Assembly: GCA_026874595.1 (NCBI GenBank)
Contig: CM049313.1
Location: 21,095,508-21,159,507 of the forward strand
Reading direction: 5' to 3'
Length of the DNA: 64,000 nucleotides
DNA from: Sipunculus nudus
Taxonomy: Eukaryota > Annelida > Sipuncula > Golfingiida > Sipunculidae
Part shown: positions 3,028-62,877 of the stretch, one piece after another
Layout of the letters: every line of letters begins with the position of its first letter
How positions within the stretch are numbered: position 1 is the first letter of the stretch
Position numbers and translations under genes: made by a program
Notes under the pieces: generated by a model
Database searches by the model: none
What the model was told of the DNA's origin: nothing
Seen by the model: the letters and a program-made list of their open reading frames with translations, nothing else

Positions 3028-3524
3028 TGGTTAGAATATGGACTGTGTTTAGATGTCACTGCCTACCTCCCGTTGTGGCAAGGAATGTAAGTCATGGTAT
3101 AAAAATAGTTTTGGTGACAATTATATCAGTGAAACCTCTCATGACCACCTCCCGGGAAACTTGACCACCGCAAACTAGAGACAGCTTTTGCGCCCTCGGG
3201 GCATAACGATAAAACCAAGTGTTGAGTACGGCCACAAATTGAAAAAGAAACAAAACTAGGTAGTTCTGATGGTGGTTGTATTAACGATTTGTTTTTGAAT
3301 TTAAGAATCATTTAAATGAGATAATAAAAGGCGACGGCCACAGTCAATGCCTTCTTGTCATAGTTGTCCGTGGTTGGCGAGATCCAGCAGTGGTCATTGG
3401 CAATGGAAGCGGCTGATCCCACCAAAAGCAATGCAGTGATTCAGATTGCATGGGTAGTAAAAGACATCATTGTAATTCAGTCACAGACAGTGTTGCAGTG
3501 GCAAGTCAATTCACTAGACTGGAT

Positions 3525-4640
3525 CAAGTCACGTCAGCGACCAAAGCCACCGTGGATAGCCATGTCAATAGAGTGGTCAATGTCACAGCAGCGACCTAAG
3601 CCACCGTGGGTAGTCGTGTCAATACAGCGGCTCAAGTCACGACAGCGATCAAAGTCAACATGGTTAGTCATGTTAATACAGTGGCCAAGATCATGGCGGT
3701 GCCCAAAGCCACCGTGATTAGACATGTCAATACCGTGGCCCATGTCACGGTAGCCATCAAAGCCACCGTTGTTAGTCATATCAATACAGTGGCTCAAGTC
3801 ACGACAGTAACCAAAGCCACCGTGGTTAATCATGTCAATACAGTGGCTCAAATCATTGCAGCAACCAAAGCCACCGTGGTTAGTCATGTCAATACAGTGG
3901 CCCAAGTCACGGCAGCAAACAAAGCCACCGTGGTAAGCCATGTTAATACGGTGGCTCAAGTCACGGCAGCAACCAAAGCCATCGTGGTTAGTCATGTCAA
4001 TACAGTGGCTCTAGTCACGGCAGCAAACAAAGCCACCGTGGTAAGCCATGTCAATACAGTGGCTCAAATCACGGCAGCAACCAATGCCACCGTGGTAAGC
4101 CATGTAAATACAGTGGCTCAAGTCACGGCAGCAACCAAAGCCACCGTGGTTAGTCATGTCAATACAGTGGCTCAAGTCATCGCAGCAACCAAAACCACCA
4201 TGGTTAGTCATGTCAATACAGTGGTCCAGTTCACGGCAGCAAACAATGCCACCGTGGTAAGCCATGTCAATACAGTGGCTCAAGTCACGGCAGCAACCAA
4301 AGCCACCGTGGTCAGTCATGTCAATACAGTGGCCCAAGTCACGGCAGCAAACAAAGCCACCGTGGTAAGCCATGTTAATACGGTGGCCAAGTCACGGCAG
4401 CAACCAAAGCCACCGTGGTTAGTCATGTCAATACAGTGGCTCTAGTCACGGCAGCAACAAAAGCCATCGTGGTTAGTCATGTCAATACAGTGTCCCAAGT
4501 CACGGCAGCAAACAAAGCCACCGTGGTAAGCCATGTCAATACAGTGGCTCAAATCATGGCAGCAACCAAAGCCACCGTTGTTAGTCATGTCAATACAGTG
4601 GCTCAAGTCACGGCAGCGACCAAAGCCATCTTAGTTTGTC
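3525..4640 (+). repeat. 54-bp minisatellite, about 20 units
   Basis: A tandem array with a 54-bp unit. Each unit carries GCCACCGTGG and, in most, TCATGTCAATACAGTGGC followed by AAGTCACGGCAGCAA. Units start near 3547, 3600, 3653, 3706, 3761 and then every 54 bp to about 4624. Early units are more divergent and some are 53 or 55 bp long; later units are close to identical. Because 54 is a multiple of three and the unit lacks stops in several frames, long open frames run on both strands: plus 3606-4445 would encode an 18-residue repeat, and minus 3534-3995 and 4011-4373 a Cys/His-rich one. A 1-base deletion near 4387 breaks the plus frame. No start context, signal peptide or flanking exon supports translation, so it is annotated as a repeat. 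Confidence 0.95.
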
Positions 4641-60105: not shown

Positions 60106-60781
60106 TGTAACGGGGTCGTAAAAGAGTGTTCGGGGAGATGTTGGTCTCTCTTTCTCTCTCGACAAAGAAACTTAATGACGCCAAGTGGTGGTGCATAAGT
60201 TTACTACAAGACAATAGAGACAAATGTTGAAATGGCGTGCTGCCACAACGAACAGTATGAGCGGAATATTTATAACGTGTTAACACACATGCGGAAATAA
60301 TACATTAAGAAAACAGTCGCATGTTTGTATTTTATGCGTTAGCAAAACTGACGTCGGGTTTCGGAGAGAGTAAAAGTAACGTTTAAGCTCGAGAGCAAAA
60401 TTGAGTCAATGTTAAAAGTTACGTCAAAGCAAATATTTCGAGACCTTTTAGAAAAGACAGTTATAAAGGTAGTTAAAAATAAGAAACCTTTAACATTATG
60501 AAAAATGATAACTCACCTACAAGACTATAGAGACAAATGTTGAAATGGCGTGCTGCCACAACGAACAGTATGAGCGGAATGCCGTCTCCACGGCTAGATT
60601 TCCCGCTCTTACCTACTCTATTGTTTTGTAAAACAAGACCAAATCTGAAGGGGGAACCCTGGCCTAGAATAAGAAAAAAATAAAGCAAATCCCTGAGGGA
60701 GAACCCAGGAAACGAATCGGACGAGTTCGGTCGGTGAACCAAGGTCGGGGAACTAAACGAGTTTAAGGTAGACCCGTTACA
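60106..60781 (-). repeat. 5' LTR
   Basis: 676 bp, the partner of the LTR at 52740. It has the same terminal inverted repeats and the same 63-bp internal duplication (60205-60267 and 60518-60580). About 2% different from its partner. Confidence 0.95.
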
Positions 60782-60829
60782 TATATATATATATTCTGGC
60801 GTCGCCAGAATGATCCGAAGAGAAAACAA

Positions 60830-61900
60830 GATATCTACCCCTGCCGACAAGACCAACAACTTCTACAAGCTAGAACCACAGACCTATAACAAACTCCTTG
60901 AAGAAAATATAACAAAGACCTACAAGAAATCGCAAAAAAAATGCAGCACATGAAACCAACCTCGAAAACAAAAAAATAGCTACAAGACTCAAGCTTGCGG
61001 ACAGAGTGGAAACCATGGCGGAAAATGAAGCATTTGTTACACTGAAAGACCACAAACCCAACTTTTGGAATAAGCCCACCTGCAGACTGATCAATCCAGC
61101 AAAAACCGAAATTGGCAGAATCAGCAAACAAAAACTTGAAAAAATTAACATCAACGTCCGAAAAACACTTCGACTGAACCAATGGAAAAACTCACAGGAT
61201 GTTTCAAAAGAATTGAAGACAAAGGTAACACAACATTTATAGGATTCGACATATGTGAATTCTATCCTTCGATCTCTCAGCAGCTACTAAAAAACGCCAT
61301 CGATTTCGCATCGAAAATTGAACACATTCCAGAAGCGACAGAAGAAATAATAAAGAAATCCCTGCTGTTTCACAACAACACGGCCTGGAACAAAAGAAAT
61401 AACAAAGAGCGATTTGACGTAACAATGGGCAGCTACGATGGGGCAGAAACTTGTGACCTGGTTGGACTATATTTGCTGTCAGAACTTCGAAAAATTGATG
61501 GTATCGACGTAGGATTATACAGAGATGACGGCCTTGCCGCATGCAACTTGAAACCCAGAGACGCTGAACAAGTTAAAAAAAAAATTGCAAGATCTTTAGC
61601 CAATTTGGACTGAAAATCACAACCGAAGCCAATAAAAAAATTATAGACTTCCTGGACATCACATTGGACCTGAACAGAGGAGAATACAAACCATTCATGA
61701 AACCAAACAATATCCCAACTTATATCCATAAGCACAGTAACCATCCCTCATCCATAATAAAGAATATACCAGCAAGTATCTCAACAAAAGACTGTCCACC
61801 ATTTCATCCAGCGCAGAAGTATTTGACCGAGCTGCACAACCATACCAAGATGCATTAAGAAAAAGCGGATATGACCACAAACTAAAATACTCCGAACCAC
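60830..61900 (+). pseudogene. Penelope-like reverse transcriptase, frameshifted
   Basis: RT of the Penelope type, related to telomerase RT rather than to LTR-element RTs. Blocks in order across three frames: ADKTNNFYKLEPQTYNKLL (from about 60838), ATRLKLADRVETMAENEAF, FVTLKDHKPN and NKPTCRLINPAKTEIGRISK (61006-61240), then FIGFDICEFYPSISQQLL (near 61236) and the catalytic YRDDGLAACNL (near 61518), then FLDITLDLNRGEYKPF and NIPTYIHKHSNHPSSIIKNI. Frameshifts lie near 60937-60945 (an A run), near 61190-61210, near 61580-61610 and near 61780. YRDD is intact, but the frame is broken at least four times. Block order matches the family; no other element type has this combination. Confidence 0.85.
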
Positions 61901-61977
61901 AACAACCCAACTAAAACAGTTAGAAGAGAAAAAGAACGAGACACATCATATGGTTCATTCCACCATACAGCGCAAAT

Positions 61978-62612
61978 GTGAAAACAAATATCGGAAAAAA
62001 GTTCCTGCAACTCCTGGATAAGTGTTTTCCCCCGGACCACAAGCTGCATAAAATACTGAACCGAAACACTGTGAAACTCAGCTACAGTTGCATGCCAAGC
62101 ATGAAACAGATAATTTCGGCACACAACCAAAGACTCCTCAGACATGAAAGAGAGAAAGAAAAAACGGAAGTTACCAGCACAAATTGCAACTGCAGAAATA
62201 AAAATGAATGTCCGATCAAGGAAGGATGCCTTACACAAAGCGTAGTTTACCAAGCCACAGTCACCAGACAAGATAATAATCACGTGGAAACATATTGGAC
62301 TGACAGAGAACACCTTCAAAACAAGATACTATGGACACATCAGTAGTTTTAAGAATAAGAAATACAGAAACAGTACCACACTTAGCCAATATGTATGGAC
62401 CTTGAAATAAGATAAAGTGCCATATGCCATCAAATGGAAAATTATCACAAAACGCAAAGCCTACTCCACCACAACGAAAAAAATGTAACTTATGTAACAC
62501 TGAAAAATATTTTACTTTATGCAGACCAGAAGAAAGCACATTGAACAATAGAAGCGAACTGACCACGACTTGTAAACACAAGACCAAACACCTGCTTTGT
62601 AACGTTAAGTAA
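61978..62612 (+). pseudogene. Penelope-like GIY-YIG endonuclease region, broken
   Basis: Starts with a basic linker (NRNTVKLSYSCMPSMKQI, RHEREKEKTEV), then a Cys-containing segment (CNCRNKNECPIKEGCLTQ) and the start of the endonuclease fold, VVYQATVTRQDNNHVETYW (near 62242-62300). In intact relatives the last part continues with YIG plus Leu/Thr; here the frame shifts just after ETY, so the second half of the YIG motif is lost. Later blocks [20 protein letters not shown] and CKHKTKHLL (62483-62612) are in other frames. The nuclease would nick target DNA to prime insertion; this copy cannot. Confidence 0.75.
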
Positions 62613-62748
62613 TCACACAAATCCCCACGGAACCAGCGCAACACAATAGCCACCTGGGCCCCAGCGACAACCTCACCGAACCGAATAACCCCAGATTAAT
62701 CCGACCTATTATGGCAAACTTTACCTGCACGTCTGATCAGTTCAGTTA

Positions 62749-62804
62749 GTACCTGAAGAGTGAGCCGGCTAGCCAGCTGTACTCATGAAACAGTTCTGTA
62801 GTAC
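62749..62804 (+). ncRNA. hammerhead ribozyme (PLE-associated)
   Basis: All core parts are present in the right order. Helix I GTAC (62749-62752); conserved core CTGAAGA (62753-62759, consensus CUGANGA); helix II GTGAG (62760-62764) with CTCAT (62782-62786), 5 bp including one G-U; core GAAA (62787-62790); a very short helix III CAG/CTG (62791-62793 and 62796-62798) with a 2-nt loop; then TA with predicted cleavage after A62800; and helix I again, GTAC (62801-62804). Short helix III is the hallmark of hammerheads found in Penelope-like elements. It lies in the tail of the Penelope element, downstream of the endonuclease remnant, as expected. Confidence 0.85.
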
Positions 62805-62832
62805 ATGAAGTAAAACTAACTGTTTATGATAC

Positions 62833-62833
<1 letters not shown>

Positions 62834-62868
<35 letters not shown>

Positions 62869-62877
62869 TATATACTT
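62834..62877. repeat. (AT)n microsatellite at Penelope 3' end
   Basis: About 44 bp of AT repeat with one AAA interruption. Confidence 0.95.

Follow-up and report, generated by a model that had tools for sequence, protein, structure and literature searches.

The window, by which we mean the whole stretch of 64,000 nucleotides of Sipunculus nudus DNA analyzed here, carries a hammerhead ribozyme at the 3' end of a decayed Penelope-like element (PLE), and their features are collected in Table 1. By its sequence, the host is a dead, 5'-truncated and frameshifted Neptune-like PLE lying between two (TA)n runs. The first-pass annotation had placed the ribozyme in the tail of such an element and described its reverse transcriptase (RT) and endonuclease (EN) as broken, and both statements are upheld: an RT motif, a Cys-rich linker and an EN-like remnant precede the ribozyme, and the eight mapped protein pieces fall in three frames, with stops between some of them. 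We take the YRDD to be the RT motif and the IGLT... remnant to be presumably a GIY-YIG endonuclease; the latter is named by eye, because Pfam gave no match for it. When the RT pieces are joined with X they match RVT_1 (E 2.8e-4, 21.1 bits, below the Pfam cut-off of 29.6), and Pfam on three unjoined pieces returned no relevant family. A PDB search with the joined RT pieces gave no match, and a protein search of viral and prokaryote contigs gave no relative. Among the characters of PLEs, the RT domain is present in the window, and the arrangement of pseudo-LTRs, tandem and inverted copies and tail is found at the level of the family, the window copy itself having a single ribozyme. The window element is about 95% identical to its closest long copies. 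According to passages of one study, the Cys-rich RT-EN linker sets Neptune-like PLEs apart from Penelope and Poseidon (PMC3846280). Two other repeats were seen in the window, a 73-bp direct repeat just 5' of the element (60195-60267 and 60508-60580, 93% identical) and a tandem repeat of about 20 copies of a 54-bp unit at 3524-4628.

Table 1. Features of the element and its predicted ribozyme, in window coordinates.
Feature	Position	Strand	Basis or remarks
(TA)n, 5' edge of insertion	60778..60794		Sequence, repeat search
5' junction, short palindrome ATTCTGGCG T CGCCAGAAT, start of truncated element	60794..60812		Homology to longer copies from about 60803
Decayed RT-endonuclease coding remnant, N-terminus missing, three frames	60803..62610	+	Translation, fragment map
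YRDD, presumed RT motif	61518..61529	+	Translation, frame starting 60801, read by eye
Cys-rich segment CNCRNKNECPIKEGC between RT and endonuclease, Neptune-like trait	62185..62229	+	Translation
Presumed GIY-YIG endonuclease remnant (IGLT...), broken	62294..62609	+	Translation
Type I hammerhead ribozyme with extended stem I (minimal motif 62749-62804)	62743..62822	+	Descriptor, family model, paired changes
Core CUGAAGA (C3-A9), CTGAAGA in DNA	62753..62759	+	Read from sequence
Stem II and loop	62760..62786	+	62760-62764 / 62782-62786, 5 bp, plus distal hairpin
Core GAAA (G12-A15.1)	62787..62790	+	Read from sequence
Stem III hairpin ACAGUUCUGU	62790..62799	+	62790-62792 / 62797-62799, 3 bp, 4-nt loop
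Predicted cleavage, A62800 / G62801	62800..62801	+	From core position
Short 3' terminus of element, 34 nt beyond cut	62801..62834	+	3' boundary common to genomic copies
(TA)n, 3' edge of insertion	62835..62874		Sequence, repeat search

The conserved core of hammerhead ribozymes is CUGANGA ... GAAA ... UH, and the window has this core together with the three helices of a type I hammerhead around it, stem I being open-ended. Inner stem I pairs GTAC 62749-62752 with GTAC 62801-62804 (4 bp), and outer stem I pairs CAGTTA 62743-62748 with TAACTG 62817-62822 (6 bp). The complete core and helices first noticed at 62749-62804 are intact in the sequence and are supported by paired changes across families, so that at this level the hammerhead motif is confirmed, within a larger structure of 62743-62822. 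The cut that had been predicted after 62800 also fits the position of the core, with U16.1 at 62799 and A62800 as H17. The first pair of stem II (10.1-11.1) is G-U and not G-C, likewise in 9 of 36 family copies, and such a pair probably lowers hammerhead activity. Stem III is exactly self-complementary in three of the five tabulated loci besides the window (L093, L097 and L099); in the window a U-U lies at the center of ACAGUUCUGU.

To support the fold we turn to seven stretches 3' of related elements in the same 1.43-Gb genome (L093-L099), which amount to about five families, since L093 and L094, as well as L095 and L096, are near-relatives of each other. A hammerhead descriptor matches in six of the seven, and in L099 the core was seen by eye, with one stem I mismatch. 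A covariance model built from 23 copies of the window family (R1) matches in five of the seven loci (53-83% identity of the RT-EN linker segment), with E-values, in 72,782 bases, of 3e-20 for L093, 1.5e-17 for L094, 2.7e-15 for L099, 7.8e-6 for L098 and 0.0049 for L097. R1 has no match in L095 and L096, where the hammerhead is visible to the descriptor only and stem I is imperfect. In a six-row cross-family alignment, which was fitted to the R1 structure and has two rows from one subfamily, both sides have changed at 11 of 23 pairs and 93.9% of cells pair, values that none of 500 shuffles reaches. Paired changes are present in each of the four counted helices, and pairing falls to 22-40% when partners are slid by 1-3 columns. 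Within the window family we found no covariation, because the copies are too alike. The 62743-62822 locus is also the window's only match to the descriptor, strict or loose, on both strands; 1036 Markov-simulated 64-kb strands gave no strict and 10 loose matches, with thresholds that were set when the motif was already known. A separate pattern, CTGATGAG..CGAAAC..GTC, has 81 matches in the genome, a number in which three places occur twice, and its reverse has 4. It marks additional families of hammerheads; at the three places read (L101-L103), one of these families has its end close to (TA)n.

Two kinds of analysis do not pick out the ribozyme. Rfam reports no hammerhead in the window at the gathering score, nor among its matches at E up to 10 in sub-stretches of 4001 and 121 bases; the first-pass annotation had named the lack of a covariance-model hit as a ground for rejection, and, taken literally, that is the outcome with Rfam. 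The same library reports a hammerhead in none of the seven related loci, gives only 17.4-22.8 bits, against cut-offs of 48.5-52, at L100, L101 and L102, and yields no hammerhead score at L103. Rfam 15 is thus insensitive here, as it misses the same ribozyme at L093-L099 and scores it below threshold or not at all in L100-L103, and its gathering cut-off is a criterion of the library and not a biological definition. Given these misses at the window and the seven related loci, annotation based on Rfam may undercount PLE ribozymes of this kind. A search of the whole genome with RF00163 found no match, which is uninformative, because 14 controls were likewise blank. Folding energy is similarly indistinct: the nearest-neighbor minimum (-19.7 kcal/mol) belongs to another fold, the hammerhead fold has -12.2 kcal/mol with its non-canonical core contacts outside the energy model, and 21 of 200 shuffled versions match the folding of the ribozyme region (z -1.36).

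The ribozyme belongs to a family with many copies. An exact-core pattern has 68 matches in the 1.43-Gb genome, compared with none for the reversed pattern, and the RT-EN linker segment (102 aa) has 150 scored matches among 1593 candidates, some in open frames of more than 700 aa and one series spaced 2427 bp. We fetched 62 rows that represent 61 of the 68 exact-core places, with L026/L051 shown twice; they leave out the window's own place, five places that were not fetched and L046, which is an exact duplicate. Most of 47 listed copy ends stop at the same 3' boundary, which lies 34 nt beyond the cut; there (TA)n begins at once or a tail of about 70 nt intervenes, usually with (TA)n after it. 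Exceptions include L033, L037 and one arm of L041. L026/L051 is a single tandem locus in which an EN remnant, the ribozyme, 144 nt past the cut and the presumed ATG of the next copy follow each other. This order puts a ribozyme in the 5' pseudo-LTR position as well, and the second copy that had been anticipated there in a relative is therefore present. One duplicated locus (L028, L031, L032, L045 and L046) combines a 75%-identical PLE copy with a changed hammerhead core and, downstream of it in the same orientation, a short copy of the window family.

At the other end, 30 arms out of the 51 non-duplicate ones with an exact core comprise hardly more than the ribozyme and start at 62730-62753 (with an accuracy of about 10 nt; the fetched stretch clips L061 and L062). 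These 51 arms come from the 62 rows after 11 were dropped as duplicates or cut by the end of the locus, the L058 arms being counted separately. A further 8 arms begin inside the ribozyme (62755-62814) and are invisible to the exact-core pattern. The copies occur as 25 head-to-head rows and 55 single arms. In 16 of 18 non-duplicate head-to-head pairs both ends could be typed, and 15 of the 16 combine a long with a short end (L030 by eye), compared with 49% expected from the single arms, which include duplicates (p 1.7e-4). The inverted pairs carry the tail on one arm, as is described for one of two inverted pLTRs of published PLEs in parts of PMC3846280. One inverted ribozyme dimer with a GGTAGC/GGTCGC loop (L052-L057 and five unfetched places) has the same flanks in the 6 fetched of 11 places and hence seems to ride in another multiplied repeat, and L014, L018, L019 and L020 look like a second dimer of this sort.

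To see which state of the RNA was copied, we compared the copies with the position of the cut. All 62 fetched exact-core rows continue past it and none ends there; over the next 10 bases 60 of the 62 match at 8 or more, and L081 and L083 match at 6. Taken from the other side, the contexts 5' of exact 62801-62821 matches begin with R in 118 cases and with Y in 10. Among the 65 R contexts read, three have no ribozyme and one more has a partial one, and two of the three are both strands of one palindrome whose arms start at 62801. Of 75 matches read or bounded, at most 13 lack an upstream ribozyme (3 of 65 R contexts and all 10 unread Y contexts). The palindrome (C5:55750828-55750865) is perfect, with both arms starting exactly at 62801, and is the clearest candidate for an insertion from cut RNA, while GTAC microhomology could also explain it. 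Similar clustering of arm starts would follow from a structural block, or from snap-back, at stem I. For the inverted pairs we considered snap-back self-priming through stem I and set it aside, as two-strand extension and the long/short pairing explain them at least as well.

We consider it very probable that this is a hammerhead in the 3' pseudo-LTR of a dead Neptune-like PLE, that tandem transcripts of such elements are cut, and that insertion primes past the cut and copies through an uncut ribozyme. What can be seen directly is the fold with its cross-family support, the element remnants, the family copies, the common 3' ends and the tandem locus. In live tandem copies the cut in the transcript would fall between A62800 and G62801, and the cleaving form may be a dimer. 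Insertion would prime on nicked (TA)n, at a distance of either 34 or about 105 nt beyond the cut, and reverse transcription would read back through the uncut ribozyme. Read most simply, the copy ends suggest that RT initiates internally, beyond the ribozyme, and in many cases continues as far as an RNA 5' end that lies a little upstream of it. Even very short copies would carry the ribozyme because insertion starts past the cut and reads back through it, and the window copy would be one passive remnant of this process.

What cleavage contributes is a separate matter. As almost all observed insertions were copied through a ribozyme that had not been cut, cleavage may not be part of insertion and may even oppose it; the ribozyme would then practically be the pseudo-LTR, with the fold kept for, e.g., protein recognition or template choice, a proposal that we make tentatively and that we regard as somewhat less probable than its opposite. 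A role in processing is also made uncertain by PAc (Poseidon of Anolis carolinensis), for which passages of PMC11167929 report that the ribozyme cuts only with protein present, that RNA-seq revealed no ends at the cut and that cleavage is dispensable for insertion in vitro.

The strongest rival to copying of an uncut template is that the family spreads mainly in the fashion of retrozymes, with ribozyme-only copies being transcribed, cut, circularized and re-inserted by the element's protein as a non-autonomous family. The abundance of nearly ribozyme-only arms would suit this, as would an array (L100) in which a 48-bp unit with the ribozyme of another family is repeated in tandem, and the excerpted literature, in which metazoan retrozymes with type I hammerheads are described and PLEs are proposed to mobilize them (PMC7229834, PMC7761336). 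We nevertheless judge it improbable. The copies are head-to-head rows and single arms, in a count that did not target head-to-tail pairs, and in the locus maps two adjacent same-strand ribozymes appear, besides the whole-element tandem L026/L051, only in the L028 duplication group, where one of the two belongs to the 75% family and has the changed core. No exact-core row ends at the cut, and few 62801-62821 matches are without an upstream ribozyme. The window itself was rejected as a metazoan retrozyme, having one ribozyme beside RT-EN remnants. The L100 array (C17:18283100-18284050, 177-745) has about 12 head-to-tail copies of a unit that contains little beyond the L095-family PLE hammerhead, apparently between inverted and direct ends of an L095-family element and (TA)n, and it suggests that a tiny template was copied again and again, or that slippage occurred.

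A second rival is that selection keeps the ribozyme in dead copies for a host function, and this we regard as very unlikely. The core of the window copy is intact despite several frameshifts, and no core variant is common to three or more of the 36 copies that were kept from 51 assembled (8 too short and 7 segmental or nested duplicates were left out), both of which speak for such selection. However, the core is intact in 26 of the 36 and damaged in 10, the 12 core positions have 12 deviating cells, which is not significantly fewer than at random positions (permutation p 0.16), and decay of 2.5-5% would be expected to leave all 12 core residues intact in 54-74% of dead copies, hence in most copies of such age. 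With a core that is not significantly less variable and with intact cores expected from decay, selection in dead copies is unsupported. That the copies have no core variants in common would agree with selection acting in the active lineage, but the same pattern is seen in stem III and inner stem I. The suggestion that the ribozyme is kept while the protein is lost is thus correct in that many copies lack the protein and are nearly ribozyme-only, whereas preferential keeping is not supported, given the damaged cores. Most likely the ribozyme survives in the window because copying starts at that end, its retention following from 3'-anchored insertion and not from visible protection. That the likeness to a hammerhead arose by chance or from low complexity is hardly conceivable, as the blank Rfam searches and the weak folding z-score that favor it are set against a strict descriptor that found nothing in simulated strands, model matches across families and paired changes that, if they stand, already refute chance.

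Hammerheads of PLEs have been in print since 2014, and minimal type I forms were reportedly described by Cervera and De la Pena in 2014 and Lunse et al. in 2017. The window ribozyme is a further member of this group, and it differs from the minimal forms in a possible 3-bp stem III hairpin, in a 6-bp outer stem I and in the G-U pair at 10.1-11.1 of its subfamily. It resembles them, as far as the excerpted descriptions go, in its type I core, weak stem III and location in a pseudo-LTR. Parts of the review literature portray PLE hammerheads as minimal type I motifs that are located in pseudo-LTRs and possibly cleave as dimers, and in 2020 one review spoke of a mystery with regard to their role and their activity in vivo (PMC7761336). 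The self-complementary stem III of L093, L097 and L099 agrees with the literature on dimers. The positions of copy ends relative to the cut tell which RNA state, cut or uncut, was the template and so provide a testable record; in a non-exhaustive search of partial texts we met no earlier record of this kind.

Metazoan retrozymes consist of tandem repeats that are non-coding, measure about 150-300 bp and contain a canonical type I hammerhead. The window family shares with the non-LTR retrozymes described in sections of PMC7229834 a type I hammerhead in short protein-less copies, whereas the window copy keeps RT-EN remnants and the fetched short copies are single or head-to-head, head-to-tail copies not having been targeted. 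The closer parallel is PAc, for which the available portion of PMC11167929 reports internal initiation of RT and extension of both target strands; this internal initiation, its AT-rich targets, its tails and its two-strand extension fit the copy ends in the window family, and the hammerhead lies near the start of the ORF in both. The two differ in that the window family has a Neptune-like Cys-rich linker and two discrete termini, and in that the cut site lies 144 nt before the presumed ATG in L026 and, by the same excerpts, 26 bp inside the ORF in PAc (PMC11167929).
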